A DNA stretch of 34,181 bases from an uncultured Lachnospiraceae bacterium (GTDB taxonomy: Bacteria; Bacillota; Clostridia; Lachnospirales; Lachnospiraceae): the NCBI GenBank assembly GCA_947627245.1, contig CANQVH010000039.1, positions 1-34,181 of the forward strand, given 5' to 3'. The translations under genes were made by a program, and so were the position numbers. A model generated the notes under the pieces. The model was given only the letters and a program-made list of their open reading frames with translations. It did not search any database and was not told the origin of the DNA. How positions within the stretch are numbered: position 1 is the first letter of the stretch; every line of letters starts with the position of its first letter. Shown piece by piece: positions 5,486-22,428 of the stretch.

Positions 5486-5756
5486 GAAGTACCTCGTTCA
5501 TCGCATCGAGGAAAGAGGGATACCGTTTATACTGTTCCGGATGAGCCTTCATCGTATAGAACTCGTTCATAGCGGCAGCGGTCTCGGCGTTTGGGATTTC
5601 CCTCTGGATAGAAAAAGGGAACCCCTGTACGCGCAGGGCCTGCTTCAGAAAAACCGTGATAGCAGTCGTGAGATCCATACCAAGATCTGCAAACAGCGCC
5701 TGACTGTTCTTTTTCAGGTCGGCGTCCAAGCTGATGTTTGTGCTTACTTTCGACAT
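5475..5756 (-). CDS. dinJ: RelB/DinJ-family antitoxin
   Basis: A 93-residue protein whose N-terminus (KVSTNISLDADLKK) is a ribbon-helix-helix DNA-binding segment, followed by the MDLTTAITVFLKQAL helix typical of RelB/DinJ. It would bind the downstream toxin and repress its own promoter. AAGGAGGT sits 6-7 bases before the ATG. The toxin start lies inside the last codons, so the two are translationally coupled. A near-consensus promoter and a palindrome lie just upstream. Confidence 0.9.
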   Translation of the reverse strand: MSKVSTNISLDADLKKNSQALFADLGMDLTTAITVFLKQALRVQGFPFSIQREIPNAETAAAMNEFYTMKAHPEQYKRYPSFLDAMNEVLHDA

Positions 5757-6942: not shown

Positions 6943-8142
6943 ATGGAAAGAGACCCTCTTGTATCGATTATTGCTCCGGTATATAACGTCGAGCAGTACC
7001 TGCCTAAAATGATCGACAGTGTTTTGGCGCAAACCTTCACAGACTTTGAGTTGCTGCTGGTAGACGATGGGACACCGGACAATAGCGGGAAGATCTGTGA
7101 CGAAGTTGCAGCAAGGGACAACCGTATCAGGGTGATACACAAGAAAAACGGAGGCTCGGCAAGTGCACGAAACGAAGGGATGAAAGCAGCGAAAGGCAAA
7201 TATTTCTTCTTTGTGGACTCGGATGACTGGATCGAGGAGAAAATGCTGGAAACCCTTGTTGGCACAGCAGAAAAATATCAATGCATGCTGACGGTTACCG
7301 GATACTGCATGGAGTACTACGAGGATGGGAAGGCGACGGCTTATGATGTATCGCCGGAACCGGCAGCATATTTAGATCAGGAAGATTTCCGCAGAAATGC
7401 GTACCGCTATTTCAACCAAAGTTTTTTCGCGTTTCCATGGAATAAACTTTATCTTGCTGATCATATCAGGAAAAACAAAATAACATGGCCGGAAAACTTC
7501 CGTCAGTGGAACGACCTTCCCTTTAACGTGGATTACATGATGGATATATCTTCTGCTGTGTTTGTACCCGGGTCTATGTACCATTACTTTCGGTCGCGTC
7601 CGGGAGCAGAGGGAGCGGTTGTCTCAGAAAGCCCGGTTTTATACAGCATACGCAGAGAGCAGTTTGAATATATTTTGAAGCTATATCAGTATTGGGGTGT
7701 CAACGACACAGAAAGTATGGGAGAAATCCACGCATATTATGTGTCACGTCTCCTGCAGTGCATACAGGAGACTGCGGCGCAGGAAGGCATCCCGAAAAAG
7801 GAAAAGTATAGGCAGATCAAGGAGATCCTGTCAGACGGGCAGACCCGGAAGAGTCTGGGGATGGCAAAGCCGAAGAATTTTATGATGCGAACAGTTGTCC
7901 TGCCCTTGAGATGGGGACTGGTTTCTCCCTGTTACATAGAAGGAAAAGCCATTGGTTTCGTTAAGAACAAGATGGCAAACACATTCTATCACCTTCGGGC
8001 AAGTGTTGTAAATAAGGGGACTGTCCGGAAAAAGATGTGGGGGGGGGTACAGCTCCTAACTGAATTAAGAAGCGCATCACCCGTTATATCTTTCAGGCTG
8101 ATTGATATGTCTGGCGCTGCCGCCGAAAGGATGGTGGCGTGA
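6943..8142 (+). CDS. GT2 glycosyltransferase with poly-G-gated C-terminal tail
   Basis: Inverting family 2 glycosyltransferase of 399 residues acting on a lipid-linked glycan in the cytoplasm. The GT-A core shows VSIIAPVYN, the LLVDDGTPD segment, NGGSASARNEG and the metal-binding VDSDDW (about 90-95). A run of nine G at 8039-8047 encodes W-G-G near residue 367. With nine G the frame continues 31 more residues (from VQLL to AERMVA) and stops at 8142, one base before the next gene's ATG. With eight or ten G the protein would end within 3-4 residues of the tract (TAA 8057-8059 or TGA 8061-8063). The tail lies outside the recognised catalytic fold, so the switch may act mainly on the downstream GT8 gene. 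Confidence 0.88.
   Translation: MERDPLVSIIAPVYNVEQYLPKMIDSVLAQTFTDFELLLVDDGTPDNSGKICDEVAARDNRIRVIHKKNGGSASARNEGMKAAKGKYFFFVDSDDWIEEKMLETLVGTAEKYQCMLTVTGYCMEYYEDGKATAYDVSPEPAAYLDQEDFRRNAYRYFNQSFFAFPWNKLYLADHIRKNKITWPENFRQWNDLPFNVDYMMDISSAVFVPGSMYHYFRSRPGAEGAVVSESPVLYSIRREQFEYILKLYQYWGVNDTESMGEIHAYYVSRLLQCIQETAAQEGIPKKEKYRQIKEILSDGQTRKSLGMAKPKNFMMRTVVLPLRWGLVSPCYIEGKAIGFVKNKMANTFYHLRASVVNKGTVRKKMWGGVQLLTELRSASPVISFRLIDMSGAAAERMVA
8039..8047 (+). repeat. Poly-G tract 1 (G9), end of GT2 gene
   Basis: Nine consecutive G followed by TAC. The present length keeps the frame open to 8142; either one-base change meets a stop within 16 bases. Candidate slipped-strand phase-variation site. Confidence 0.85.
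8115..8139 (+). promoter_or_regulatory. Hairpin holding the ribosome binding site of GT8 gene A
   Basis: CGCTGCC can pair with GGTGGCG (7 bp, two wobbles), placing the weak ribosome binding site AAAGGA in the loop about 12 bases before the ATG at 8144. Only ribosomes translating the GT2 tail would pass through it. Pairing is inferred by eye. Confidence 0.45.
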
Positions 8143-8143
8143 T

Positions 8144-9181
8144 ATGGTTGTAGTTTATAACAGCGATGAGCGTTTCGCCGGCATTTTTGCCACATCTGTC
8201 CTGTCTTTGTTTGAGAATAACAAGGATGCGGAGGAGATAACGGTTTATCTTATCGAGAACGGGGTAAGTGAGGAAAGCAAGGCAAAATTTCAACAGATAG
8301 CAAGAAGTTATGGCAGGACGATCATTACACTTCCGATGCCGGATCTTGAAAAATTGGCCGGAGTGGAGGTAGTCATTCCGGGGTATAACCGGATGGCGAC
8401 CTGTGGACGGCTGTTTATTGCCTCCCTGCTTCCGCAGGAAGTGGAAAGGGCTATTTATGTTGATAGCGACACAATATTTGTGGATTCGGTGTCGGAACTG
8501 TGGGATTTCGATTTGTCCGGCTGTCCGATCGCAATGGCTAACGGAGCGATGGGACCTTGGTATCGAAGCATTCTGGGAATCCCAAAGGATGGAATATATT
8601 TTAATTCCGGTCTGCTTCTGATTGATGTAAAGCGCTGGAGGGAGGAGCGCGTTGAAGATTCTTTCCTGTCCTTTTTAAAAAGTCAGGATGGGTATGTCGC
8701 GTTTCCGGACGAGGGTGTACTGAATGCGGTGTTCGATGGGAAGATTAAAATGCTCCCGCTCCGTTATAACGTAATCAGTCTGGTATATGCATTCTCTTAT
8801 AAAGAGCTTATGCGTATCAAAGGGCCGCAGAACTTTTACAGCGGTGAGGAGATGGAGAAGGCCGGGAAGCATCCGGTGATGGTGCATTTCACGCATAACT
8901 TTTATCTGCCGGTCAGGCCGTGGATGAAAGGATGCAGCCATCCGTATGCAAAACAGTTTCTGATGTACCGGGACATGACCCCATGGAAAGACGAGCCATT
9001 ATGGGAAGATAATCGTTCGCTGGTCAGCAAGGCTTATACATTTTATAGCCATTGTGCTCCGAAACCGCTTATGGTGTGGACATCAAGGATGATTAATGTC
9101 TATCTGACACCGATGATGCACAAAGTTAAACAATATAGGCACAGAAAGCACGCATCGGGGGGGGGTACAACTCCTAACTGA
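8144..9181 (+). CDS. GT8 glycosyltransferase, paralog A
   Basis: Retaining family 8 (LgtC/glycogenin-like) glycosyltransferase, 345 residues, transferring galactose or glucose from a UDP-sugar. It starts MVVVYNSDERFAGIF, the expected family start, has the metal-binding D-S-D (about 106-108), GIYFNSGLLLI, PDEGVLNAVF and the C-terminal H-F-x-x-N-F...RPWMKGC. The ATG at 8144 is chosen because it begins the conserved fold; an in-frame TTG at 8102 would add 14 residues. Nine G at 9157-9165 near the 3' end make the protein finish S-GGG-TTPN. With eight G it would instead gain the same 31-residue tail as the upstream GT2. The first 97 residues are nearly identical to paralog B, the rest clearly different. 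Confidence 0.9.
   Translation: MVVVYNSDERFAGIFATSVLSLFENNKDAEEITVYLIENGVSEESKAKFQQIARSYGRTIITLPMPDLEKLAGVEVVIPGYNRMATCGRLFIASLLPQEVERAIYVDSDTIFVDSVSELWDFDLSGCPIAMANGAMGPWYRSILGIPKDGIYFNSGLLLIDVKRWREERVEDSFLSFLKSQDGYVAFPDEGVLNAVFDGKIKMLPLRYNVISLVYAFSYKELMRIKGPQNFYSGEEMEKAGKHPVMVHFTHNFYLPVRPWMKGCSHPYAKQFLMYRDMTPWKDEPLWEDNRSLVSKAYTFYSHCAPKPLMVWTSRMINVYLTPMMHKVKQYRHRKHASGGGTTPN
9157..9165 (+). repeat. Poly-G tract 2 (G9), end of GT8 gene A
   Basis: Nine G followed by TAC. In this state translation stops at 9181, 81 bases before the next ATG. Eight G would open the tail frame to a TGA at 9258-9260; ten G would stop at a TAA just after the tract. This switch is therefore in the short-tail state, opposite to tract 1. 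Confidence 0.85.
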
Positions 9182-9232
9182 ATTAAGAAGTGCGTCACCT
9201 GTTATTTCTTTCAGGCTGATTGATATGTCTGG

Positions 9233-9257
9233 CGCTGCCGCCGAAAGGATGGTGGCG
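9233..9257 (+). promoter_or_regulatory. Hairpin holding the ribosome binding site of GT8 gene B
   Basis: Identical to 8115-8139. AAAGGA is in the loop of a 7-bp stem, 12 bases before the ATG at 9262. In the present G9 state of tract 2, ribosomes stop upstream and would not cross it. Confidence 0.45.
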
Positions 9258-9261
9258 TGAG

Positions 9262-10275
9262 ATGGTTATAGTTTATAACAGCGATGAGCGTTTCGCCGGC
9301 ATTTTTGCCACATCTGTCCTGTCTTTGTTTGAGAATAACAAGGATACGGAGGAGATAACCGTTTATCTTATCGAGAACGGGGTCAGTGAGGAAAGCAAGG
9401 CAAAATTTCAACAGATAGCGAGAAGCTATGGCAGGACGATTATTACACTCCCGATGCCGGATCTTGAAAAGCTGGCCGGGGTGGAGGTAGTCATTCCGGG
9501 ATATAACCGGATGGCGACCTGTGGACGACTGTTTATTGCATCATTGCTGCCGGAGAGTATTGATAAAGTGATTTATGCTGATTGCGACACGGTTTTTGTA
9601 GATTCGATTGAAGAACTGTGGGAGACGGACATATCGGGACATCCGGTCGGGATGACTGACGGTGCTCAGAATATGGCATACCGAAAGCTTCTAGGGTTGT
9701 CTGGGGAAGGTATTTATTTCAATTCGGGGCTTCTTTTGATCAATTTAAAACTATGGAGGGAAGAACAGTCGGAACAGGCGTTTATTGATTATATCGTGAG
9801 CAGAAACGGTTATGTGACCTTTCCGGATGAGGGAGTCCTCAATGCGGTATTTGACGGGAGGATCAAGCTGCTGCCGCTGCGATACAATGCGATCACGGCG
9901 ATCTTTGCTTTTTCGTATGAGGAGCTGTGTCACATTAAAAGCCTGAAGGATTTCTATAGTCCGCAAGAGGTTGAAGAAGCGAAGAAAAGCCCTGTAATGG
10001 TCCATTTCACAAATAATTTTTATATGCCGTTAAGACCGTGGATGAAAGGGTGCGTCCACCCGTATACACAGAGTTACTTGAAATATCGGAACATGACGCC
10101 ATGGAGAGAGGAACCGCTCTGGGAGGACAGCCGGTCGATGCTCAAGAAACTTTATACGGGATATTGCCATAAGGTTCCGAAAGCAATATTTGTTATGACA
10201 TCGAACATTATCAATGTACATCTGACACCGATGATGCACCGATATAAAAAGTGGAGACACAGCAAAAAGGAGTAA
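9262..10275 (+). CDS. GT8 glycosyltransferase, paralog B
   Basis: Family 8 glycosyltransferase of 337 residues with the same architecture as paralog A: MVIVYNSDERFAGIF start, the D-C-D metal site (about 106-108), GIYFNSGLLLI, PDEGVLNAVF and H-F-x-x-N-F...RPWMKGC. After residue about 97 it is clearly diverged from A, so donor or acceptor specificity probably differs. It lacks a 3' G tract and ends normally two bases before the glf ATG. The ATG at 9262 fits the family start; the ribosome binding site AAAGGA is weak and distant, so initiation may depend on ribosomes arriving from gene A, which do not reach it in the present tract-2 state. Confidence 0.9.
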   Translation: MVIVYNSDERFAGIFATSVLSLFENNKDTEEITVYLIENGVSEESKAKFQQIARSYGRTIITLPMPDLEKLAGVEVVIPGYNRMATCGRLFIASLLPESIDKVIYADCDTVFVDSIEELWETDISGHPVGMTDGAQNMAYRKLLGLSGEGIYFNSGLLLINLKLWREEQSEQAFIDYIVSRNGYVTFPDEGVLNAVFDGRIKLLPLRYNAITAIFAFSYEELCHIKSLKDFYSPQEVEEAKKSPVMVHFTNNFYMPLRPWMKGCVHPYTQSYLKYRNMTPWREEPLWEDSRSMLKKLYTGYCHKVPKAIFVMTSNIINVHLTPMMHRYKKWRHSKKE

Positions 10276-10277
10276 AT

Positions 10278-11411
10278 ATGGATCATTATGATTATCTGAT
10301 TGTAGGAGCGGGCTTGTTCGGAGCAGTATTTGCAGAACGCGCAAAAAACATCGGAAAGAAGTGTTTGGTGGTTGACCGTCGGGATCACATCGCAGGAAAT
10401 GTATACACCTATGAACGCAACGGTATTCATGTTCACGCTTATGGGCCGCATATTTTCCACACGAATGACAATGCAGTATGGGAGTATGTAAATCAATTCA
10501 CGCGATTCCATAACTTCAAACTGGGAACCATAGCGAATTATAAAGGAGAGATCTATTCCCTGCCGTTCAATATGTACACATTCAATCGTATGTGGGGTGT
10601 GTTAGCGCCGGAGGAAGCAGAAAAAAGGATCAGGGAACAGCGAGAGGCTGCCGGAATCAAGGAACCTCAAAATCTGGAAGAGCAGGCTATATCACTTGTG
10701 GGTACGGACATCTATGAAAAGCTCATTAAGGGCTACACGGAAAAGCAATGGGGTCGGTCTTGCAGGGAGCTTCCGTCTTTCATTATCAAGCGACTGCCGG
10801 TGCGGTTCACATGGGATAATAACTATTTCAATGCACTGTATCAGGGAGTTCCTGTGGGCGGGTACACGCAGATGGTGAAAAATATGTTGGAAGGTATTGA
10901 AGTACGCTTGGGTGTGGATTATTTGACGCATAAGGGGGAGCTTGCTTCATTGGCAGAAAAGGTGGTATACACCGGAGCGATTGATGCTTATTTTGATTAT
11001 AAGCTGGGAGCATTGGAATATCGTTCGGTACGGTTTGAAACGGAGGAATTGAATAAACCGAACTATCAGGGCAATGCGGTAGTGAATTATACGGATAAAG
11101 AGACACCATGGACACGGATTATAGAACATAAATGGTTTGAGTTCGGAAAGGATGCAGCGGGTAATGACATACCGGGGACGGTGATTAGCCGTGAGTACAG
11201 TGCAGAGTGGAAACCGGGGATCGAACCCTATTACCCTGTGAATGATGAGAAAAACGGAGCATTGTATGCCGAGTACAAGGTACTGGCAGAGCAGGAGGAG
11301 AATGTGATTTTCGGTGGACGCTTAGGAGAGTACAGGTATTACGATATGGATCAGGTGATTGCGCGAGCGTTGGCAGTTTGCGGCAAGGAGCTGCGGGAGG
11401 GTTTGGTATGA
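10278..11411 (+). CDS. glf: UDP-galactopyranose mutase
   Basis: FAD-dependent enzyme of 377 residues converting UDP-galactopyranose to UDP-galactofuranose. It shows the N-terminal dinucleotide motif VGAGLFGAVFAE, RRDHIAGN, the conserved YGPHIFHT segment and the FGGRLGEYRYYDMDQVI C-terminal flavin-binding signature. Length is normal. AAAAGGAG lies 5 bases before the ATG at 10278. Its presence implies galactofuranose in the glycan and gives GalE a purpose. The stop overlaps the next start (ATGA). Confidence 0.97.
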   Translation: MDHYDYLIVGAGLFGAVFAERAKNIGKKCLVVDRRDHIAGNVYTYERNGIHVHAYGPHIFHTNDNAVWEYVNQFTRFHNFKLGTIANYKGEIYSLPFNMYTFNRMWGVLAPEEAEKRIREQREAAGIKEPQNLEEQAISLVGTDIYEKLIKGYTEKQWGRSCRELPSFIIKRLPVRFTWDNNYFNALYQGVPVGGYTQMVKNMLEGIEVRLGVDYLTHKGELASLAEKVVYTGAIDAYFDYKLGALEYRSVRFETEELNKPNYQGNAVVNYTDKETPWTRIIEHKWFEFGKDAAGNDIPGTVISREYSAEWKPGIEPYYPVNDEKNGALYAEYKVLAEQEENVIFGGRLGEYRYYDMDQVIARALAVCGKELREGLV

Positions 11412-12355
11412 GACCATTGCCGTCCAAGGTGGTTATGACCGTAAAGCAGAACAGATTTTTGTTTAATACTGTTGGCAAGGCATATTACTATGGGTTCCTT
11501 GGCGTGAAGGAATTGTTATTTGATGTCGGGACTGCGATAAAAAGAGTTTTTCCGGATAACGATGTGAAAGCGATCCGCGCATTGAAAGGAACCTGTTCCG
11601 GAAAATGTTTCATCATTGGAAACGGGCCTTCTTTGAGAGCGGAGGATTTGGATAGGATTAAAGAACAACGTATTCCGTCGTTTTCCTCTAATAATATAGA
11701 CGCCATATTTGAGCGCACCGACTGGCGCCCGGATTACTATGTCTGTCAGGACAAAAACGGCCTGAAAACGCAGGAGCACCACAAGGTGGCGTTAACGTAT
11801 CATTTTGGAACGTATTTTTTTGCGAAAGACGCGAAAAAGATAGTAGAGGAATGTGAATTGACAAAGCAGGAAAACGTACTCTATTTCCGGGCCGATGTGT
11901 CGAATATGACGAGAGATCCAAACAAGTGCAGCCCGGATGCATCTTTGCGGGTTGCCAGTGGCTTTACGGTAACTTACGCGGCAATACAACTGGCGATGTA
12001 TCTGGGGTATGAGGAGATCTATCTGCTTGGCGTCGACTGCAGTTATCCGAAAATTGCAGATAGGAATGGTCTGCGGATTGAGTATGACGGGCCAAGCCAC
12101 TTTGATGGATGCGCTCAGAATGAAACGGTCAGCTACGGATATGCCAATGTCGAGGGCATGATGCAGGCATACAGGAACGCAAAGAAATATGCGGACGAAC
12201 ATGGGATAAAAATATACAATGCGACTCGCGGAGGTAAGCTGGAAGTGTTTGAAAGAGTAGGTCTCTCTAAAGTTATTGGGGGGGGTGGGATAACCTATCT
12301 TCTTGATATCGTTCATCTTACTTCGGACAGACGTGTCCGGGGTGCAGCGGCATGA
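11408..12355 (+). CDS. DUF115/GT42-like protein A (candidate nonulosonate transferase) with poly-G-gated tail
   Basis: A 315-residue protein with CFIIGNGPSL near residue 70, a WRPDYYVCQD segment, and ASGFTVTYAAIQLAMYLGY followed by IYLLGVD. This pattern is shared by the DUF115/Maf-like family and resembles the GT42 sialyltransferase fold motif (GNGPSL; SG...A-x-ALGY..IY-L-G-D). With NeuB and NeuA homologues downstream, transfer of a CMP-activated keto sugar is a reasonable inference; pterin-kinase-type DUF115 activity is the alternative. Its natural end is near KIYNATRGGKLEVFERV, shared with paralog B. After it, eight G at 12278-12285 lead in the present frame into a 21-residue tail that ends in the next gene's start (ATGA at 12352). 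Confidence 0.8.
   Translation: MRPLPSKVVMTVKQNRFLFNTVGKAYYYGFLGVKELLFDVGTAIKRVFPDNDVKAIRALKGTCSGKCFIIGNGPSLRAEDLDRIKEQRIPSFSSNNIDAIFERTDWRPDYYVCQDKNGLKTQEHHKVALTYHFGTYFFAKDAKKIVEECELTKQENVLYFRADVSNMTRDPNKCSPDASLRVASGFTVTYAAIQLAMYLGYEEIYLLGVDCSYPKIADRNGLRIEYDGPSHFDGCAQNETVSYGYANVEGMMQAYRNAKKYADEHGIKIYNATRGGKLEVFERVGLSKVIGGGGITYLLDIVHLTSDRRVRGAAA
12278..12285 (+). repeat. Poly-G tract 3 (G8), end of DUF115 gene A
   Basis: Eight G followed by TGGGATAA. G8 opens the tail to 12355. Seven G stops at TAA 12291-12293 and nine G at TGA 12304-12306. Confidence 0.82.
12321..12342 (+). promoter_or_regulatory. Hairpin sequestering the ribosome binding site of DUF115 gene B
   Basis: CTTCGGACA pairs with TGTCCGGGG (9 bp, two G-T wobbles) around the 4-base loop GACG. 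The last four G of the stem belong to GGGGTG, the only Shine-Dalgarno-like sequence before the ATG at 12352 (7-base spacing). A ribosome reading the tail to 12355 would melt it. Confidence 0.55.
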
Positions 12356-13230
12356 GTGTGCTGGCAAAGGTGAGTATCAGACGCAGGATCAAGGAGAATA
12401 GGTATATCCGTTTTATGGCGATTCCTTATATGCGTGTAAGGGAGTATTATCGGCGAAAAAAATATCTGCAGGAGGATGATCCGGCATATTTCAGAGCGCT
12501 GAAAGGCGGACATGCCGGGGAACGTTGTTTTGTGATTGGCAACGGGCCGAGTCTGTTGCCGGAGGATCTGGACAAGCTGGCGGCTGAGGGTGAGACATGT
12601 TTCGGTACAAATCGAATTTATTGTATCTATCCTCAAACGAAATGGCGACCTGACTATTATATCTGCTTTGATATGGAAGCGGTATCTACGCTCATGCAGG
12701 ATATCAAAGACGCAGGAGATTATCCGAAGTTCATCAACTATAAAGGAGCCAGATTCGGGCGTGAGGAGAAGGACAATATTCACTACATATTTGTGGCGGA
12801 TAAGTTTATGGCCGATGCATTTAAGCAAGAGTGCCCGACGCTTCGGGATGATGTCGACAAAGGTGTCACCAGAAGCGCGACCGTCACTGTTGCTGCCATT
12901 GAAATGGCGATTTATATGGGCTTCAAAACTATTTATCTGTTGGGCGTTGACAACAATTATTCACTGAAACGATTCAGAGACGGACATGTCGTCAAGGATA
13001 CGTCGGTGCAGACAAGCTATTTCGCAGGCATGGAGGATCCCAGAGGAGGAGACGGAACCGAACGCGCGGTACAGGCGATTGATTTTATGAATGATTCTTA
13101 TACGATAAGCAGGACTTTTGCGGAGGAAAGAGGCGTGAAAATATACAATGCCACGCGCGGCGGCAAACTGGAAGTGTTTGAGCGGGTCGACTTTGATTCT
13201 TTGTTTAAAGAAAGCAGGAGAGCAGAATGA
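12352..13230 (+). CDS. DUF115/GT42-like protein B (candidate nonulosonate transferase)
   Basis: A 292-residue paralog of the preceding gene: CFVIGNGPSL near residue 60, GTNRIYCIYPQTKWRPDYYICFD, then TVTVAAIEMAIYMGF..IYLLGVD and the shared end KIYNATRGGKLEVFERV. It has no tract or tail. Its start overlaps the upstream stop (ATGA) and its ribosome binding site is buried in a hairpin, so translation probably depends on gene A ribosomes. It overlaps the HAD-SIS gene by four bases. Two such proteins next to a CMP-sugar pathway suggest two transfer steps or two acceptors; this is inference. Confidence 0.8.
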   Translation: MSVLAKVSIRRRIKENRYIRFMAIPYMRVREYYRRKKYLQEDDPAYFRALKGGHAGERCFVIGNGPSLLPEDLDKLAAEGETCFGTNRIYCIYPQTKWRPDYYICFDMEAVSTLMQDIKDAGDYPKFINYKGARFGREEKDNIHYIFVADKFMADAFKQECPTLRDDVDKGVTRSATVTVAAIEMAIYMGFKTIYLLGVDNNYSLKRFRDGHVVKDTSVQTSYFAGMEDPRGGDGTERAVQAIDFMNDSYTISRTFAEERGVKIYNATRGGKLEVFERVDFDSLFKESRRAE

Positions 13231-14315
13231 AAAACATTCAGATGATCGTCTTTGACGTAGACGGTGTGATAACCGATGGAAAACAATACATAGACGGACA
13301 GGGCGAAGAGACGAAGACAATCTCCCTGAAAGACATGGATGCCCTTAGTCTTTTGCATCAGGCCGGCTACAAGATAGGGTGTATTTCTGGAGAGGATACA
13401 GCCTTCAGCAGAAGACTTTCCCAGATAGCTCCGCTGGATTTTGTAAAGCTTGGATGTAAGACAAAGATAAAAGCAATAGAAGAAATTGAGAAAATGTTTC
13501 GATTGAAGGATTGCGACCTGTGTTATATCGGTGACGGAAAATATGATATTCCTGTCATGGAGAGGGTTGGCTTGGGAATATGCCCCGCCGATGCGATTGA
13601 TGAGGTGAAGCATGTGGCGGACGTAATCCTGAAGCGCAAAGGCGGCGAAGGCTGTATTGCCGAGTGCTATACGCTTCTGGAGAAGAGAAAAATATACACC
13701 GGTACGATAGCAGGAGACGCCGTCGGGAATGAGCTTATCCGGGAACGCATAGAAGGGCATCGGGCAGTGTTTGACGCGTTGGCAGCAGACGAGGATCTTT
13801 GTACAAGGATCGGCGTTTCTGCCGGAATGATAAATAACTGCTATCAAAATGGCGGGCATCTGTTTCTGTGCGGCAATGGAGGCAGCGCGGCGGATGCGCA
13901 GCATCTTGCGGCAGAGCTCGTCGGCAGATTCTATCTGGAACGAAGAGCTTTGAGTGCGGAAGCTTTGTCTACGAATACGTCTGTCCTCACCGCTTTGGCG
14001 AACGACTATGATTACGATATGATTTTTGCCCGGCAGGTAGAGGCTAAGGCATCGGAAGGGGATGTCCTGATCGGGATTACCACCAGCGGAACCAGCAAAA
14101 ACATCCGGCAGGCGTTTCAGAAAGCAAAGCAGCAGGGGGTAAAAACGATCCTGATGACGGGGAAGATCGCGGAAAATGCCGAGATACTTCAGGACACGGA
14201 TTGCCTGCTGGCGGTCCCTTCGCGGGATACGCCGCGGATTCAGGAAATGCATATTTTGATGGGACATATTATCTGCGAGCTTGTAGAACGGGAGATTGCA
14301 GAAAATATACAATAA
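13227..14315 (+). CDS. HAD phosphatase (KdsC-like) / SIS isomerase (GmhA-like) fusion
   Basis: A 362-residue two-domain protein. Residues 1 to about 160 are a KdsC-type HAD phosphatase with DVDGVITDG and GDGKYDIPVM, the class that dephosphorylates KDO-8-phosphate or sialic acid 9-phosphate. Residues about 175-360 are a SIS domain closest to the GmhA/phosphoheptose isomerase group: GNGGSAADAQHLAAELVGRF near 215 and TTSGTSKNI. It therefore likely makes and dephosphorylates an aldose-phosphate precursor for the NeuB-like synthase immediately downstream. Whether the sugar is heptose-based is not visible. Its start overlaps the upstream stop. Confidence 0.85.
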   Translation: MKNIQMIVFDVDGVITDGKQYIDGQGEETKTISLKDMDALSLLHQAGYKIGCISGEDTAFSRRLSQIAPLDFVKLGCKTKIKAIEEIEKMFRLKDCDLCYIGDGKYDIPVMERVGLGICPADAIDEVKHVADVILKRKGGEGCIAECYTLLEKRKIYTGTIAGDAVGNELIRERIEGHRAVFDALAADEDLCTRIGVSAGMINNCYQNGGHLFLCGNGGSAADAQHLAAELVGRFYLERRALSAEALSTNTSVLTALANDYDYDMIFARQVEAKASEGDVLIGITTSGTSKNIRQAFQKAKQQGVKTILMTGKIAENAEILQDTDCLLAVPSRDTPRIQEMHILMGHIICELVEREIAENIQ

Positions 14316-14342
14316 ATACAAGAGCAAAGGGAAGGAAGAGAC

Positions 14343-15179: not shown

Positions 15180-15240
15180 GAAGGATGCAGATGCACGGAG
15201 AAAGAAACTGCGCGGCTGTTGAGAAAAATGCAGGTGTATG
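15155..15240 (+). repeat. 43-bp imperfect tandem repeat duplicating the neuB-like gene end
   Basis: Two units, 15155-15197 and 15198-15240. Both encode the C-terminal R-K-K-L-R-G-C-stop in one frame. The second unit forms the spacer before the cytidylyltransferase and contributes part of its GGAGG ribosome binding site. Confidence 0.8.
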
Positions 15241-15251
15241 GAGGAAGAGGA

Positions 15252-16034
15252 ATGGACAGGCGGCTGTCGGAACTTGTAGACGAACAGAAGAACATTGCAT
15301 TGATACCTGCACGGGGCGGCTCCAAATCCGTGCCGAAAAAGAATATCAGAATATTCAACGGACATCCTCTGATCGCCTATTCCATCGCGGCGGCCAAGCT
15401 GTCAAAACGGATTGACCGGGTGATCGTCAGCACGGACTCAGAGGAGATCGCCGGGATCGCGCGGCATTATGGCGCGGAAGTGCCGTTCTTGAGACCGTCG
15501 GAATACGCGCGGGATGATTCACCGGATATCGAATTTGTCAGGCATGCGATCGAATGGTTTGCGAAGCATGAGAGAAAAGTACCGAAATACATATCCCATA
15601 TCCGGGTGACGAGTCCTGTTCGGGACTGGCGGGTCATCGATGAAGGGATTGACACGATCATGAGGGATAAGAACGCCAGCTCCCTGCGCTCAGGGTATAT
15701 ATGCGTGCACCCGCCATATAAATGGTTCCAGCTAAGTGACGCAGAATATGCCAGACCTCTGATGCCGGGCATGACCTGTGACGAAGCAAATCTGCCAAGA
15801 CAGGGGTTCCCGAAGGTACTTGTCCCAAACGGATACATCGATGTCTTGCGATCTGATTTTATCATAGAAAACGACCTGATGCATGGGGAAAGGATGATCG
15901 GGTTCGTCACGGAAGAGGTGCCGGACATCGATACGGAAGCGGATCTTTGCAAGCTGGAGATGTATAAGGGGCAAAAAGAGGCGTTGGACGAGCTGATGCA
16001 TTATCTGAACAAGATTGGAGAGACGACGGCATGA
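15252..16034 (+). CDS. neuA: NeuA-like CMP-sugar (acylneuraminate) cytidylyltransferase
   Basis: A 260-residue nucleotidyltransferase activating a keto-deoxy sugar acid with CTP. It has the N-terminal IPARGGSKSVPKKNI nucleotide-binding motif, STDSEEIA and RVTSPVRD. Length fits NeuA/PtmB/LegF rather than the longer bifunctional forms. The ATG at 15252 is chosen because GGAGG lies 7 bases upstream; in-frame ATG 15228 has no site. The true sugar (sialic, legionaminic, pseudaminic or other) cannot be told, since none of the usual UDP- or GDP-sugar modifying genes for Leg or Pse are in the window. Its stop overlaps the methyltransferase start (ATGA). Confidence 0.88.
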   Translation: MDRRLSELVDEQKNIALIPARGGSKSVPKKNIRIFNGHPLIAYSIAAAKLSKRIDRVIVSTDSEEIAGIARHYGAEVPFLRPSEYARDDSPDIEFVRHAIEWFAKHERKVPKYISHIRVTSPVRDWRVIDEGIDTIMRDKNASSLRSGYICVHPPYKWFQLSDAEYARPLMPGMTCDEANLPRQGFPKVLVPNGYIDVLRSDFIIENDLMHGERMIGFVTEEVPDIDTEADLCKLEMYKGQKEALDELMHYLNKIGETTA

Positions 16035-16399
16035 ACAAATATGTGGAGACAGCTTATCAGGAAAAAGAAAAACCGTTTGGGGAATACCCGCTCCAACTGG
16101 CTGAATATCTGATGGAGAGATTCGGGCTGAAAAAAGGCATGCGTATTCTGGACAATGGCTGCGGGAGGGGAGAGTTTCTTCATGCTTTCAGTTCCCTTGG
16201 GATGGAGGCGAGCGGAACGGATATTTCCGATTTTTGCAAGCAATCGAAGGTGGTGGATCTGAATCACGATATGCTTCCGTTTCCGGACAATTATTTTGAC
16301 GCGATTTTTTCAAAGTCGGTGATCGAGCACATTGAGAATACCGAGCATTATATGAGCGAGATGAGGCGTGTTCTGAAAGAGGGGGGGTACTTATTCTGA
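16031..16399 (+). CDS. SAM-dependent methyltransferase, 5' part (phase-OFF, frameshifted at a G tract)
   Basis: N-terminal 122 residues of a class I methyltransferase: motif I ILDNGCGRGEFL near residue 40, TDIS, and the YFDAIFSKSVIEHIE motif IV region. At 16381-16387 seven G place the frame into Y-L-F-stop (TGA 16397-16399), right after the VLKEGG motif where the fold should continue. With eight G it would read ...KEGGVLILMVPDW and join the downstream part into a 215-residue enzyme of normal size. The gene is best described as switched off in this sequence. It likely methylates the CMP-activated sugar or the glycan (inference from neighbours). Confidence 0.85.
   Translation: MNKYVETAYQEKEKPFGEYPLQLAEYLMERFGLKKGMRILDNGCGRGEFLHAFSSLGMEASGTDISDFCKQSKVVDLNHDMLPFPDNYFDAIFSKSVIEHIENTEHYMSEMRRVLKEGGYLF
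16381..16387 (+). repeat. Poly-G tract 4 (G7), inside methyltransferase
   Basis: Seven G preceded by A and followed by TAC. The tract covers the two glycine codons of the conserved LKEGG motif. G7 is OFF; G8 restores the complete reading frame to 16677. Confidence 0.88.
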
Positions 16400-16677
16400 T
16401 GGTTCCCGACTGGGAAACACAGTACTTCATCTTTTATCAGGACCCTACTCACATTCACCCTTACACCAAAAAGTCGGTCGACAGGCTGTTGAATATGTGT
16501 GAATTCAAAGAGGTCAGTTCTGAGAAATTTGTCCAGCTCCCCAGCGTGTGGAGGAATAGCGTCATGCGGTTTTTCAGCCGTATGATCCGTCTGGCGGGGC
16601 CGGTAAAGAAAATATATAAGAACAAATTTATACGTTTTTCGCGTGAACTGATGATATTGGGGAGTGGAACAAAATGA
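16399..16677 (+). CDS. SAM-dependent methyltransferase, 3' part (out of frame with its start)
   Basis: Continues the methyltransferase fold from MVPDWETQYF, with Y-Q-D-P-T-H-x-H-PY-T and the LL...F substructure typical of the C-terminal half of class I sugar methyltransferases. Its first ATG (16399) overlaps the upstream stop as TGATG, so re-initiation could yield a separate 92-residue piece and keep ribosomes moving to the next gene, whose ATGA start overlaps the stop here. It is unlikely to be an independent gene. It lacks a ribosome binding site of its own. Confidence 0.8.
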   Translation: MVPDWETQYFIFYQDPTHIHPYTKKSVDRLLNMCEFKEVSSEKFVQLPSVWRNSVMRFFSRMIRLAGPVKKIYKNKFIRFSRELMILGSGTK

Positions 16678-17519
16678 GCATTGTCTGGGGCGTGATGCAG
16701 GGCCGTTTTACGGATAAAGGGGGTTTTTACCCGCAGCAGTTTCCATGGGATGCATGGAAGCAGGAGTTTTATACTGCAGGGAAATACGGGATCGACTGCA
16801 TGGAATGGATGTTCAATGCGGAGCGCTATGAGGACAACCCGGTCTGGACGGACAACGGAAGGAAAGAAATCGCGGACATTGTGCAGGATTCCGGAGTAGG
16901 CGTCGGTTCAATTTGCGCCAACTACTATATGGAGCATTCCTTGCTGGCGGATGAAGCGGCGGATATTCTCGACCGTCTGCTGGATGCCGGGGAAGAACTG
17001 GGTGCAAGGCATATCGTTCTGCCCCTGTTTGGTGCGAGCGGGATTGAGGATGCTGATACGCTGTCTGAGCTGTCTGATTGGGTGGGGACACGGCTCTTGG
17101 GCCGGGACATCAGGGTGTGCCTTGAGACGGATATGCCCGTGGATTTCCAGCTTGCCGCATGCGACAGGTCAGGCGGTGACAGGATCGGAGTTTGCTATGA
17201 CGTAGGCAACGCGGCCGGAAGAGGCTGCGACTACGCGGACGATCTGTCAAAAATCAGTAGGGGGGGGTATTACCACGAGATTCATCTCAAGGATAAAAAG
17301 CTCAACGGGAACAGCGTAATGCTGGGACACGGTTCGGTCGATTTTTCCAAGGTTCTGAACATTGCCGAAGGCAGGGATCGACTGATGGTATACGAGAGCT
17401 TTTTTGATGTCTGTGCGGTAAAGGATACGGCAAGAAATATTGCATATATCAGGGGGATATTTGATGGGAAAAAAGATATTGTTTGTGGGGCTGGGGAGTG
17501 CGGGCCAGCGCCACCTTAG
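16674..17519 (+). CDS. Xylose-isomerase-like TIM-barrel sugar isomerase/epimerase, phase-ON
   Basis: A 281-residue protein of the AP-endonuclease-2-like TIM-barrel family (sugar phosphate isomerase/epimerase). Visible are GVMQGR at the start, a C-L-E-T strand, VCYDVGNA and HEIHLKDK, containing the expected metal-ligand Glu, Asp and His. Eight G at 17260-17267 encode the R-G-G before YYHEIHL (about residues 196-198), so the present length is ON; seven or nine G would truncate the enzyme before its last third. The end overlaps the next gene by 56 bases, giving an unusual C-terminus (GAGECGPAPP). Substrate unknown; probably the same modified sugar as its neighbours. Confidence 0.82.
   Translation: MSIVWGVMQGRFTDKGGFYPQQFPWDAWKQEFYTAGKYGIDCMEWMFNAERYEDNPVWTDNGRKEIADIVQDSGVGVGSICANYYMEHSLLADEAADILDRLLDAGEELGARHIVLPLFGASGIEDADTLSELSDWVGTRLLGRDIRVCLETDMPVDFQLAACDRSGGDRIGVCYDVGNAAGRGCDYADDLSKISRGGYYHEIHLKDKKLNGNSVMLGHGSVDFSKVLNIAEGRDRLMVYESFFDVCAVKDTARNIAYIRGIFDGKKDIVCGAGECGPAPP
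17260..17267 (+). repeat. Poly-G tract 5 (G8), inside TIM-barrel gene
   Basis: Eight G followed by TAT. In frame as sequenced. Either one-base change leads to a stop within about 70 bases. Confidence 0.82.
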
Positions 17520-18516: not shown

Positions 18517-18565
18517 GAAGTGAATGCACAGTGCATTGTGCGTTTCAGGGGAAAGGAGACTGAGA

Positions 18566-19402
18566 ATGAACGCTGTAGAGCGATTAATGATTCCCGGGCG
18601 AGTCGTTATCATTACGGGAGGCGCCGGATTGCTGGGGAGAAAGCATGCCGAGGCTGTAATAGAAGGCGGCGGCATACCTGCCTTGCTGGATATTGCGGAT
18701 GAGTATCTCAGCCGTGCCAGAGAGACCCTGTCAGAAAAGTATCCGGGGAAAAAAGTGGAATGCCAAAAAGCAGACATTACCGATCGGCAGCAGGTAGAGA
18801 CAGTGGGTAATGTCTTGCTGGAGAAATACGGTCATATCGACGGCCTCATCAATAATGCGGCAAATAATCCCAAGGTGGAAGGCACGTCGGAAAACATGAA
18901 GCCAATTCGCTTTGAAAATTTTCCGATGTATATGTGGATGAATGATCTGGCTGTCGGGCTCACGGGTGCGTTTGTGTGCTCGCAGGTGTTTGGGGCGATC
19001 ATGGCCGAAAACAAGCGGGGGGGGGTAATTCTCAACATTTCTTCCGATTTGGGAATCATTGCCCCGGATCAGCGCATATATCGCCGCGAAGGACTGCCGG
19101 ATGACGAGCAGACGGTAAAGCCGGTCACTTATTCCGTAATCAAGCATGGGCTGATCGGGTTGACGAAGTATCTGGCTACATACTGGGCTGAAAGGGGAGT
19201 GCGGGCCAACGCACTGTGTCCGGGCGGTGTATTCAACGGACAGAATGATGAATTTCTGACGAAGCTCACGAATCTCATTCCCTTGGGGCGTATGGCAAAT
19301 GTGGACGAGTATAAGAGCACGGTGCTCTATATGCTTTCCGACGCCAGCAGCTATATGACAGGAAGCACCTTGATCGTGGACGGCGGGCGGACATGCTGGT
19401 GA
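18566..19402 (+). CDS. SDR-family oxidoreductase (PtmA-like), phase-ON
   Basis: Short-chain dehydrogenase of 278 residues: TGGAGLLGRKHA cofactor motif near 17, NNAANNP, ISSDLG with catalytic Ser about 160, Y-S-V-I-K (about Tyr189, Lys193) and the C-terminal LIVDGGRTCW. The last part and length recall the flagellin-modification SDR PtmA, which works beside PtmB (a NeuA homologue). Nine G at 19017-19025 encode R-G-G just before VILNISS; one G less creates an immediate TAA and one more truncates within about 80 bases, so slippage would remove the active site. The ATG at 18566 has AAAGGAG 7 bases upstream; the in-frame ATG 18524 lacks one. Confidence 0.88.
   Translation: MNAVERLMIPGRVVIITGGAGLLGRKHAEAVIEGGGIPALLDIADEYLSRARETLSEKYPGKKVECQKADITDRQQVETVGNVLLEKYGHIDGLINNAANNPKVEGTSENMKPIRFENFPMYMWMNDLAVGLTGAFVCSQVFGAIMAENKRGGVILNISSDLGIIAPDQRIYRREGLPDDEQTVKPVTYSVIKHGLIGLTKYLATYWAERGVRANALCPGGVFNGQNDEFLTKLTNLIPLGRMANVDEYKSTVLYMLSDASSYMTGSTLIVDGGRTCW
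19017..19025 (+). repeat. Poly-G tract 6 (G9), inside SDR gene
   Basis: Nine G followed by TAATTC. In frame as sequenced. Loss of one G puts TAA in frame directly after the tract. Confidence 0.84.
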
Positions 19403-19434
19403 GAAGGATATTATTGAAATGGGAGGATATAAAT

Positions 19435-21168
19435 ATGTCTTTTCTTTTGAAAGTAGATCAAGTTGGAGCAGATTATATAAGAACAACGAAAGAGAGTTCA
19501 AGGCCTGTTTATTATGATGAGCAGAAGAAAAAGCTTCTGGTTGGTTATGTATTCTGCGATAAAGAGAGAGAAGCCTTAGACTGTGGATGGGAGCAGGATC
19601 CCAAAGCTCTGCAGCAGTTTGATGGCTCTATGGCATTAATCTCGTGGGGGGCGAAAGTAGTTCTTTGCTCTGATTTGATGGGCTGTGAAAAAATATATTA
19701 TTATCAGGGCAATCACAGTTTTCTTGTATCAGATGATTTTTGGGATATTATCCGAGAAATACAGCCGAAATTCTCCGATCTTGATGAAAAAAATTTACGT
19801 GCGCGACTTCTTGTGGGAAGCGGATATTTGAGTGAGGAAACCGTCATCAAGGGAATGTCTATTTTGCTGCCGGCGGCAAGAGTTGAATACGATTTACTGT
19901 CTGGGAAATTGAAAAACGAGCAGTACCAACTCTACAGATTCAGTGGTGAAGTGACAGATATAGATGAGGCTGCAAAGAGAATCGGTCAGGCGATTGACAC
20001 AACGATACAGCGTATTCAGGAAAGACATGGAGACGTAGTATATGGTCTTGGACTTTCCGGTGGGCTGGACTCACGGCTTGCATTGCATTACGCATTAAAA
20101 AATGGTATGAGGCTATCCTGTTTCAATGTTTGCAAAAAGCGCCCCAATGGTGTTCTGACAGCAAGAAGTGTTCGATTGGCACAAAAATTGGCGGATTTAT
20201 ATTCTGTTCCCCTTACAATCGTGGAATGGGATCCTAAGCAGATTGGAGCAGTAAAACAGGTACAGCTCAGGCAATATCCTGACGGCCCTTTACAGGAGGC
20301 AGCGAGAGATATTTATAAATACGTACCGGATTGGAAACCGGATTTTGATGTCTTGCTGACCGGTGGTATGGGTATGGGGCAGCAGTTATTTGCTACGCAT
20401 TATGATGAAAAAGAAAACGCTGAGCTTTCTCAGATAATGGAATATGTTACAAACGGAATCCTTTACTCCTACAACAAAAGCATGATTAGCCGCGGCCTGC
20501 ATGTGCTGTTTGGAGCGCCAATCAAACAGAATTCCTTCCGCTATCCGTGGGAACAGAAATTATTTTTTGATTCGAGGGAAGACATAAATAGACGTGCAGT
20601 GGCGGTGGCAGAGAATCTCATGAATGAAGGGACTTCCTATTTTGAAACGATTTTCAATATTCGGGGAAGGTATTTTGGAGCATATTCGTGCAATGGTGCT
20701 TTTGAGAGCATGTACAGACTGAAACCGGCGTATTCTATTTATTCGTCCTATGTTCTTAAAGAAGCGTTGAGGTTTTCTACATGGTTATTGCCACATCGTG
20801 GTCTTACACGAGGAACCATTCGCTTCAATTTACCGGAGGCGAGTCAGATTGCGGAGGAAGGACATGATGCGGCACCTGCAAAGATCAATAATTTCCGATT
20901 CCTGAGAAAGTGTATGGCTCTGACAGATCGCGTAATTCGGGGAGATGGGTCGCATGTTTCGACAAAGTATTGGCGTTCGCAGGAGGTATGGCATTCGTTT
21001 GAGGAGGACATGAATTCTGGTGGCAAATGGTTCTGGGAAATTATGGATACAGATATACCGCTTGATGAGGTAAAGAAGACATCTGAAATTAAAATGACAT
21101 CACTTTGGGACACTAAACGTCTTTTGGATGCTTTAGAGACAAAAGAATATTTGAAGTGGGATGGATGA
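19435..21168 (+). CDS. Asparagine-synthetase-like ATP-dependent amide ligase without catalytic Cys2
   Basis: A 577-residue protein with an AsnB-like C-terminal synthetase domain: ATP-pyrophosphatase P-loop LSGGLDSR near residue 207 and LLTGGMGMGQ later. The N-terminal part resembles a glutaminase domain (FDGSMALI, CSDLMGCEKIYYY), but the protein starts M-S-F rather than M-C, so the nucleophile that releases ammonia from glutamine is absent. In O-antigen loci AsnB-like proteins amidate uronic acids (for example WbpS); a related ligase role is inferred. GGGAGG lies 7 bases before ATG 19435; an in-frame ATG at 19393 overlaps the SDR stop but lacks a site. From here to 26 kb base composition becomes visibly AT-richer, suggesting a separately acquired segment. 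Confidence 0.75.
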   Translation: MSFLLKVDQVGADYIRTTKESSRPVYYDEQKKKLLVGYVFCDKEREALDCGWEQDPKALQQFDGSMALISWGAKVVLCSDLMGCEKIYYYQGNHSFLVSDDFWDIIREIQPKFSDLDEKNLRARLLVGSGYLSEETVIKGMSILLPAARVEYDLLSGKLKNEQYQLYRFSGEVTDIDEAAKRIGQAIDTTIQRIQERHGDVVYGLGLSGGLDSRLALHYALKNGMRLSCFNVCKKRPNGVLTARSVRLAQKLADLYSVPLTIVEWDPKQIGAVKQVQLRQYPDGPLQEAARDIYKYVPDWKPDFDVLLTGGMGMGQQLFATHYDEKENAELSQIMEYVTNGILYSYNKSMISRGLHVLFGAPIKQNSFRYPWEQKLFFDSREDINRRAVAVAENLMNEGTSYFETIFNIRGRYFGAYSCNGAFESMYRLKPAYSIYSSYVLKEALRFSTWLLPHRGLTRGTIRFNLPEASQIAEEGHDAAPAKINNFRFLRKCMALTDRVIRGDGSHVSTKYWRSQEVWHSFEEDMNSGGKWFWEIMDTDIPLDEVKKTSEIKMTSLWDTKRLLDALETKEYLKWDG

Positions 21169-21195
21169 AAGTTTTGCAAAGAGGAGGTATGAACA

Positions 21196-22428
21196 TTGGA
21201 GGAAACCATAGCTTGTGCTGACAATACGATAAGGGTATTGCATGTCATAGGAAAGCTGGGCAGTGGAGGGATAGAAACGCTTCTGGTTTCGCTTATTGAG
21301 AATATGAGCAGATCAGATATGGAAATTCATTTTCTTCTTTTTGATGAAAAAGTGCAGGGATTTTATGATGATCTTGTGAAGCGTCAGGGTTGCGAACTGG
21401 ATTACATCAAATCGATAAACTGCAACAATAAAATCAGAAAGACAATCATACGCATGAAGCGCATCAAATCTTTTTTGGAGCAACAGAAATATACGATCGT
21501 TCATTTGCATGGAGGACCGCAGCAATACATATATGCTTATATTGCCCGCAGAACGGGAGCCAAAGCGGCAATCATTCATTCTCATAGCGTGAGGGAATCC
21601 GATGGACTGAGGACGAAAATGGTGTCGATTCTGAAATATTGTTTTAGAAATTCAGTTTCCTATTATTTGGCGTGTTCAGAGGAGGCTGCAAAATTTGCAT
21701 GGCCCAAGAATGTAAGTCGGGAAAAATGTGCTGTTTTAAAAAATGGTATTCCTGTTGATAAATATCGATTCAACAAAACGACACGCGACAGCTTCAGAAA
21801 AAAATATGGTTTGAATGAGAAATTTGTGATAGGTCATGTGGGCAGGTTTGCAAAAGAAAAAAACCATGAATTTCTTCTGGAAGTGTTTGATTTAATCTTA
21901 AAAGAAAATTCAGAAAGCGTACTTTTGCTTATCGGCGAAGGACCACTGGAAACGCCAATACGAGAAAAAGCGAACAAGTTAGGTATAGCAGACAATGTTC
22001 TGTTTTTTGGAACTACATACGATGTGGCGAGCGCGTTGATGGGAATGGATGTTATGTGCTTCCCGTCTGTTTGTGAAGGTCTGGGAATTGCGGTGATTGA
22101 AGCACAGGCTGCATCTTTGCAGGTAATTGCATCGGATAATGTCCCCGATAGCGCTGATATAACCGGATACATAAAGAGGTTAAACTTGAACGATCCAGCT
22201 CGTGTATGGGTGGATGCAATCAATGCCTACAGAGGAGGCTATAGAAGAACAGATATGTCTGATGCGATTAGAAAAGCAGGATATGACATTAAGGATTCCG
22301 CGGAAAAATTGGAAAAATTGTATAGGAATTTAGCATCTGCCTCGGGGGGGGGCAGTCGTCAGATAGCATTTGCGGTCTTTGAAGACACCCGGTCATACCG
22401 CTCCTGTATACAGGAGGTGGCGGCATGA
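21196..22428 (+). CDS. GT4 glycosyltransferase with poly-G-gated C-terminal tail
   Basis: GT-B fold family 4 transferase of 410 residues: N-terminal VLHVIGKLGSGGIETLL, NGIPVDKY, GHVGRFAKEKN and the donor-binding SVCEGLGIAVIEAQ (E-x7-E, near 290). A TTG start at 21196 is used because GAGGAGG is 8 bases upstream; the ATG at 21189 is in another frame and stops after ten codons. Near the 3' end nine G (22344-22352) are in frame and lead to a tail ending QEVAA at 22428, overlapping the next start. The catalytic fold is complete before the tract. Confidence 0.9.
   Translation: MEETIACADNTIRVLHVIGKLGSGGIETLLVSLIENMSRSDMEIHFLLFDEKVQGFYDDLVKRQGCELDYIKSINCNNKIRKTIIRMKRIKSFLEQQKYTIVHLHGGPQQYIYAYIARRTGAKAAIIHSHSVRESDGLRTKMVSILKYCFRNSVSYYLACSEEAAKFAWPKNVSREKCAVLKNGIPVDKYRFNKTTRDSFRKKYGLNEKFVIGHVGRFAKEKNHEFLLEVFDLILKENSESVLLLIGEGPLETPIREKANKLGIADNVLFFGTTYDVASALMGMDVMCFPSVCEGLGIAVIEAQAASLQVIASDNVPDSADITGYIKRLNLNDPARVWVDAINAYRGGYRRTDMSDAIRKAGYDIKDSAEKLEKLYRNLASASGGGSRQIAFAVFEDTRSYRSCIQEVAA
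22344..22352 (+). repeat. Poly-G tract 7 (G9), end of GT4 gene
   Basis: Nine G followed by CAG. G9 keeps the tail open to 22428. Eight G stops at TAG 22364-22366 and ten G at TGA 22380-22382, both before the downstream hairpin. Confidence 0.84.
22401..22416 (+). promoter_or_regulatory. Hairpin sequestering the ribosome binding site of the second GT2 gene
   Basis: CTCCTGTATACAGGAG is a perfect inverted repeat (6-bp stem, TATA loop). Its 3' arm is the Shine-Dalgarno CAGGAGG of the ATG at 22425. Only ribosomes in the G9 tail frame translate across it. Confidence 0.65.

Follow-up and report, generated by a model that had tools for sequence, protein, structure and literature searches.

Seven poly-G tracts lie in a polysaccharide operon within a 34,181-base stretch of DNA (hereafter the window), which is the entire contig G000:C39 of the source genome G000 (3.84 Mb, 151 contigs, 97% complete, 7% estimated contamination), likely that of a gut bacterium of the Lachnospiraceae. 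The tracts were found where an earlier note on this DNA had located them, as G9 at 8039, 9157, 19017 and 22344, G8 at 12278 and 17260, and G7 at 16381, and five of the seven are directly followed by TA; no further run of at least seven G or C occurs in the 34,181 bases, the next longest being a single G6 at 19646. A Pfam scan of the operon identified an EPS-type sugar-phosphate transferase, GalE, UDP-galactopyranose mutase, NeuB, a cytidylyltransferase, a methyltransferase, a TIM-barrel protein, a short-chain dehydrogenase (SDR), a Gfo/Idh/MocA oxidoreductase, two MptE-like proteins, the glycosyltransferases (a GT2, two GT8, a GT4 and a second GT2) and a Wzy_C protein. Judging from this gene content, the product is probably a Wzx/Wzy-type polysaccharide with a nonulosonic-acid-like sugar. 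Throughout, each species is represented by a single consensus assembly, homologs were compared as proteins, the sites are few, and RNA folds are predictions.

The earlier note had placed all seven tracts inside genes, a description that covers two types: three lie within conserved domains (16381, 17260 and 19017), and the other four (8039, 9157, 12278 and 22344) are located at gene 3′ ends. Past each of these four tracts, one of the three frames remains open, for 30, 30, 22 and 24 codons, respectively, and ends at the start of the next gene (as TGATATG, TGAGATG, ATGA and ATGA), and the remaining two frames stop within 5–27 nt. All of the genes concerned are encoded on the forward strand. The first GT2 gene (6943..8142; PF00535, 3e-35) contains the G9 tract 8039..8047, and its last codons form the tail (8050..8142) that runs up to the GT8a start, the other frames stopping 9 and 13 nt past the tract. 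The GT8a gene (8144..9181, with its ATG at 8144; PF01501, 4.5e-32) ends with GGGTTPN at the G9 tract 9157..9165, behind which the tail frame (9168..9260) would encode a peptide identical to that of the 8050 tail, up to the GT8b gene (9262..10275; PF01501, 1.3e-32), the own end of which has no tract. MptE-like gene 1 (11378..12355, with a likely ATG at 11408; PF01973, 5.6e-16) ends with the G8 tract 12278..12285 and a tail (12286..12355) whose ATGA lies at 12352, the other frames stopping 5 and 18 nt past the tract, and is followed by the tract-free MptE-like gene 2 (12352..13230; PF01973, 5.3e-11). The GT4 gene (21196..22428; PF00534, 7.6e-26) ends with the G9 tract 22344..22352 and a tail (22353..22428) whose ATGA lies at 22425, where the second GT2 gene begins (22425..23441; PF00535, 9.9e-39); its other frames stop 11 and 27 nt past the tract. 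The tail frame is in use in the assembly at 8039, 12278 and 22344, and is not in use at 9157.

The GT8 tandem shows how these units are built. When the copies beginning at 8039 and 9157 are aligned, each of the eleven full bins that start from the first G has 26–30 matches in 30 positions, and the pair of bins that precede the tract have only 10 and 9 matches in 30; this sharp onset at the first G indicates that the tract travels with the downstream gene. The two tails differ in five codons, all at the third position and all synonymous in the tail frame, which suggests, on a small sample, that the tail frame is translated and kept. A comparison of native C-termini, which covered the GT8 and MptE-like proteins, placed the GT8 tract at the position where the protein ends in tract-free GT8b and in many homologs, and the tract of MptE-like gene 1 within the stretch where the neighboring copy and most of 108 homologs end. 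Under a simple rule, the 77 GT8 homologs detected at E ≤ 1e-40, two of which are the window's own (P0121 and P0122), comprise 19 with GG and a short end, 9 with a long end and 49 with neither, having no GG near the end.

At each of the four 3′-end tracts, a hairpin is predicted over the next start when the segment from −50 to +12 around that start is folded. The predicted hairpins lie at 8114..8140 in the ribosome-binding region of GT8a (minimum free energy (MFE) −22.9), at 9232..9258 in that of GT8b (−25.8), at 12319..12344 directly before the MptE-like 2 start (−21.3), and at 22398..22423, where the hairpin would pair the AGGAGG ribosome-binding site of the GT2 gene at 22425 (−23.4), all on the forward strand. 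Two further hairpin sites in G000 were identified at L081:5000 (MFE −17.1) and L084:17501 (MFE −17.0), and, except for the two GT8 copies, the hairpin arms differ in sequence between sites. A fixed rule, requiring an upstream open frame of at least 100 codons, a next open reading frame of at least 120, and one frame that stops at the next start while the other two stop earlier, was applied to 98 tracts (47 in G000, 48 in G015 of the same genus, one in G042 and two in the locus L101, the G7 tracts of G000 and G015 being partly included). It selected 13 sites (seven in G000, five in G015, one in G042 and none in L101), of which nine, in three species, have strong predicted hairpins, including two in G015 (−27.2 and −21.7) and one in G042 (−26.8). 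These nine sites fold more strongly than 51 tract-free overlapping starts used as controls (control mean MFE −10.9; p = 1.3e-5), and the unpaired fraction of the ribosome-binding region is 0.04–0.51 as against a control mean of 0.51 (p = 6.4e-5). Because the controls have a somewhat lower G+C content, composition-corrected z-scores matter here: z ≤ −2 was obtained at seven of the nine hairpin sites and two of the 51 controls. Taken together, all 13 rule sites also differ from the controls (z, p = 0.0028; MFE, p = 0.0033), and seven of the 13 reach z ≤ −2, compared with three of the 51 controls (Fisher p = 2.5e-4).

These observations bear on the possibility that only ordinary intragenic phase variation takes place, such that the tails are normal C-termini and slippage trims or extends the upstream enzyme, leaving the next gene unaffected. 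Three of the seven window tracts are of this kind, as are, by automatic labels, 15 of the 44 tracts of G8 or longer (G8+) in G000 (eight in frame and seven out of frame) and 20 of 47 in G015 (nine in frame and 11 out of frame), although these labels are rough: the tract at 19017 was called “antisense or other” despite the SDR being in frame, and L098 is perhaps noncoding. Normal C-termini are difficult to reconcile with the GT8 and most MptE-like homologs ending at about the tract without a tail, and a restriction of the effect to the upstream enzyme is difficult to reconcile with a duplicated unit that starts at the tract and runs into the next gene, or with predicted hairpins over the next start that are stronger than at the 51 control starts; this explanation is therefore considered rather unlikely.

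The comparison among relatives that the earlier note had proposed was made at the protein level and showed differences in frame. The window bases following the tract are TACAACTCCTAACTGA, of which two frames read TTPN or YNS, and the short ends of the GT8 homologs include four of the form T[TS]PN (one being the window's own) and five of the form YNS, YSS or YS. Three homologs, P0124 (ending in TSPN), P0126 (with a tail) and P0130 (ending in YNS), are mutually 84–90% identical over 330 residues and end in all three frames; similarly, P0136 (TTPN) and P0143 (YNS) are 89% identical and end in two. For the MptE-like proteins, ends were read by eye (a conserved GG motif confounds the automatic C-terminus rule), and 4 of the 108 homologs carry GGG plus a tail of 21–23 residues ending in AA or AAA (P0198, P0205, P0225 and P0292) and another 4 carry GGG plus 4–6 residues (P0236, P0252, P0265 and P0278). 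Searches for the DNA of GT8 loci in relatives returned three other genomes among 47 of the genus at E ≤ 1e-60 (50%, 39% and 38% identical) and five others in a family sample of 397 genomes from 334 genera at E ≤ 1e-70 (37–38% identical), none of them closely related to the operon, so that the evidence for three frames is at the protein level.

The tails themselves have a common feature in their final residue, which is alanine in all nine hairpin-site tails and in eight of the nine long tails of GT8 homologs. An Ala-ended tail could act as a C-terminal tag, either a protease signal or an anchor, in which case the tract would set the lifetime or location of the upstream protein, and the purely synonymous changes between the two window tails would fit such a role. 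Ala-ended tails may resemble ClpXP degrons. However, the final alanine need not have been selected as protein, because it can arise where the stop overlaps the next start and ribosome-binding site, and the rest of the tail varies widely between homologs; a tag as the function of the tails is regarded as distinctly improbable.

Differences in frame among close homologs also bear on whether the DNA itself changes. Transcriptional slippage or ribosomal frameshifting would instead give every cell the same constant mixture of products and would involve no heritable switching. RNA polymerase is known to slip on homopolymers of at least eight, the source naming runs of A or T (PMC3711429). Such mixtures may arise on top of tract variation, but paralogs or species differ in tract length, and homologs that are 84–90% identical lie in different frames, which indicates that the DNA itself changes; a mechanism acting on RNA or ribosomes alone is thus very improbable.

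The three tracts within conserved domains are of a different type. The methyltransferase gene (16031..16677) is divided at the G7 tract 16381..16387 into two frames (16031–16399 and 16399–16677), with the PF08241 match on the first piece (1.9e-17) and no family on the second; 137 open codons precede the tract and, in a different frame, 95 follow; no further stop interrupts them. A paralog in the C2 cluster (L081:15843) is also out of frame, at the same motif and with the same tract length. The TIM-barrel (AP_endonuc_2) gene (16674..17519; PF01261, 2.4e-14) contains the G8 tract 17260..17267 in frame, and the SDR gene (18524..19402; PF13561, 1e-37) contains the G9 tract 19017..19025 in frame at its RGGV codons, where an SDR paralog (L081:18474) likewise has a G9 in frame. 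Genes broken at the tract alone look like switches rather than products of decay, and an ordinary frameshift at each of these three tracts would turn the gene's own enzyme ON or OFF. The SDR tract looks recent, because [RW]GGV at the tract codons is limited to 7 of the 120 homologs listed (from 7,998 candidates scored), all among the nine closest. A scan of named genomes for the SDR confirmed four loci, one of which is from the Lachnospiraceae (L101, from an uncultured metagenome-assembled genome; SDR 69% identical) and is the closest named locus found; its SDR homolog has no tract, and two G9 tracts (L101:6961 and L101:12958) lie within 4 kb of it. Both of these G9 tracts occur in the context TAC-G9-TA.

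The forward strand of the window contains 104 runs of exactly G4, nine of G5, one of G6, one of G7, two of G8 and four of G9. The six G8+ runs, for which the earlier note had predicted about one by chance, compare with a mean of 1.26 and a maximum of 6 in 300 dinucleotide-preserving shuffles of this strand, and the seven runs of G7 or longer compare with a mean of 4.18 and a maximum of 12; within the window, the excess is therefore clear for G8+ and not for G7 or longer, and the local count alone is not overwhelming. Pattern searches of the whole genome were decisive. In G000, runs of exactly G6 number 52 and those of exactly G7 only 7, and there are 44 G8+ runs, comprising 13 G8, 22 G9 (the mode), 7 G10, one G11 and one G12. 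Plain chance is rejected by this distribution, because chance counts drop with length, whereas the counts in G000 dip at G7 and peak again at G9; an A10 pattern, by comparison, has two matches in G000 on both strands together. G015 has 47 G8+ runs versus 13 of G7, and is the clearest case after G000 among the 13 of 40 genus genomes in which G8+ outnumber G7. Further G8+/G7 counts in the genus are 19/2 (G008), 20/6 (G011), 37/22 (G048), 7/0 (G050) and 25/11 (G051). In G028, a 1.9-Mb genome of the same order and another family, G8 has 143 forward and 39 reverse matches, with overlapping matches counted, a strong strand bias in the contigs as stored.

A homopolymer assembly error, or fixed glycine-rich stretches with no switch function, could also be invoked, given that the assembly comprises 151 contigs, that its contamination is estimated at 7% and that single tract lengths may be off by one. 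A one-base error cannot yield 44 G8+ tracts with a gap at G7, nor can it create tails, predicted hairpins or the same positions in other species, and fixed glycine stretches leave the three frames among close homologs unexplained; such an origin is scarcely credible.

The earlier note had described the tracts inside one glycan operon. The glycan-gene context stands, and the tracts extend beyond this operon: clusters C2, C4, C10, C39 (the window) and C65 of G000 have 3–6 G8+ tracts each per 12–15 kb, with 3–5 in each of the four outside the window. In the clusters scanned, tracted genes are mostly glycan genes by Pfam, from the families GT2, GT4, GT8, MptE-like (PF01973), SDR, methyltransferase (PF08241 and FkbM), MBOAT, acyltransferase 3, TupA-like ATP-grasp and PGA_cap. 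A few tracted genes are not glycan genes, examples being those of the Fe-S/FrhB type, with DUF4910 or with an HD domain, and one tract lies in the gene for a 711-residue protein with no family. Elsewhere in G000, tracts are found at the 5′ end, at or before the gene start, of genes for a histidine kinase (L099:2306, G12), a 7TM-HD protein (L070:1500, G9), an HD-domain protein (L082:17452, G9) and a choline-binding-repeat protein (L062:1499, G10), and these signaling and surface protein genes may vary too. Viral contigs gave no match to the tract plus post-tract sequence. Loss of mismatch repair as the cause of the tracts is unsupported on the basis of an intact MutS (MutL was not tested).

On this evidence, the probable explanation, with substantial room for doubt, is that a surface polysaccharide undergoes slipped-strand phase variation and that the four 3′-end tracts gate translational coupling to the next gene. 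Long G tracts would change length by slipped-strand mispairing as cells divide. When the tract places ribosomes in the tail frame, they would run through the tail, open the predicted hairpin and start the next glycosyltransferase or other enzyme (ON); in the other two frames, they would leave early, the hairpin would stay shut and little of the next enzyme would be made (OFF). The upstream enzyme would be complete in any frame, to judge by tract-free homologs of GT8 and MptE-like proteins only. Since the assembly has the tail frame at 8039, 12278 and 22344, GT8a, MptE-like 2 and the second GT2 are predicted to be ON, and since it has another frame at 9157, GT8b is predicted to be OFF; among the genes with internal tracts, the methyltransferase would be OFF and the SDR and TIM-barrel protein ON. 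Jointly, the seven tracts would vary the Wzx/Wzy-type surface polysaccharide. The multi-gene phase-variation system proposed in the earlier note has good indirect support from the bimodal tract lengths, the glycan context, the breaks at tracts only and the three frames in homologs; slippage within the strain and the melting of hairpins by ribosomes are inferred. The evidence does not support seven equivalent ON/OFF switches that each break a gene, because the four tracts at 3′ ends more plausibly switch the gene that follows, and each tract has three frames, not two.

Several observations weigh against gated coupling. The folds were already known when the nine hairpin sites were picked out, and sites 8039 and 9157 are not independent, because they are copies of each other. 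Four of the 13 rule sites (L088, L130, L137 and L148) have no hairpin, as would be expected if variation were intragenic only, and the z-score of L084 is near zero. When whole tails are folded (six sites), the hairpin is kept, but z-scores are weaker, ranging from −0.43 (at 8039) to −2.92. The sole near-identical homolog, P0198, which is 99% identical to the window MptE-like protein over 97%, has three glycines versus the window's four (counted in protein), and so differs by a whole codon with the frame kept. MutS is intact in G000, which would lower slippage. Finally, G8+ are fewer than G7 in 26 of the 40 genus genomes, with a tie in one; the excess of long tracts is strong in certain species but cannot be seen in others.

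Five of the nine hairpin sites lie between genes of the same family (GT8/GT8, MptE/MptE twice, LicD/LicD and GT2/GT2). A further reading combines gating with the alanine-ended tail into an exchange of enzymes: in the short phase, the upstream enzyme would be stable and its neighbor silent, and in the tail phase, the Ala tail would destabilize the upstream enzyme while the neighbor is made. This version is speculative and in our estimate unlikely; if it were true, slippage would swap sugars instead of adding or removing them. If gated coupling as such is true, poly-G phase variation would occur on the scale of Campylobacter in likely gut commensals, which would help to explain the many surface polysaccharides that one strain shows to phages and host. 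A repeat past the end of an enzyme would gate the next gene, a design not described in the open-access papers searched; gene-finders would mis-assign the ends of such genes, and tract length at gene ends would predict which glycosyltransferase is made.

The operon also contains two unusual fusions, one of a galactokinase-like domain with a GalU-like domain (3196–5127) and one of a KdsC/KDN-9-phosphatase-like domain with a GmhA-like isomerase (13227–14312). A 591-residue protein has weak similarity to asparagine synthase, and a 475-residue protein with no family may, by position alone, be the flippase. On the reverse strand at 5213–5756, a gene pair for a RelB-type antitoxin and a YafQ-type toxin (PF04221 and PF15738) lies between GalE and the GalU fusion. 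Two tandem, near-identical genes are found at 26136–27107 and 27389–28300, the first matching the PDDEXK_2 “transposase” family PF12784, and both have GRAEG-type repeats close to the C-terminus.

Among the nearest known systems are the glycan loci of Campylobacter, with which the window shares several G tracts per locus, the presence of MptE-like PF01973 genes among those with tracts, and nonulosonic-acid-type genes. The Maf proteins of Campylobacter also carry PF01973; the MptE-like proteins here score above the cut-off for PF01973 but reach only 20.4 bits with the PseD model, for which the cut-off is 670. Poly-G/C phase variation is described for the flagellin-glycosylation locus of Campylobacter jejuni, maf genes included (PMC13130089, PMC3068675, PMC6321876), and the 28 phase-variable loci given there for strain NCTC11168 (PMC13130089) compare with 44 G8+ tracts in G000. 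Unlike in Campylobacter, the organism here is an anaerobic, likely member of the Lachnospiraceae, the tracts lie in a polysaccharide operon that includes Wzy_C and two GT8 genes, and four of the seven tracts are at gene ends before predicted hairpins; no flagellin was found among the window proteins scanned, the remaining genome not having been searched for it. The polysaccharide loci of gut Bacteroides are controlled by invertible promoters, and the outcome, different surface polysaccharides in one gut strain, would be alike, but Bacteroides uses DNA inversion and not tract slippage. In translation attenuation, as in the erm leader genes, translation of an upstream frame opens a hairpin that hides a ribosome-binding site. 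The ribosome in the upstream frame would likewise open the hairpin over the next ribosome-binding site here, under the control of DNA tract length and not of drug-caused ribosome stalling. The GeneTack survey puts the coupled translation of overlapping genes in one class and phase variation in another (PMC3711429). The present sites resemble both of the classes as outlined there, having the stop of one frame at the next start (an ATGA-type overlap) and a tandem repeat at the frame transition, and would differ from them in that the length of one tract decides whether coupling occurs. Neither poly-G phase variation in the Lachnospiraceae nor phase-variable translational coupling was the subject of any open-access paper among those listed by the searches, judged by title and abstract opening, preprints excluded, and terms for coupling, polarity, fusion, C-termini and Firmicutes are absent from PMC6321876. 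The proposed switch would resemble both the poly-G phase variation of Campylobacter glycosylation genes and translational coupling.

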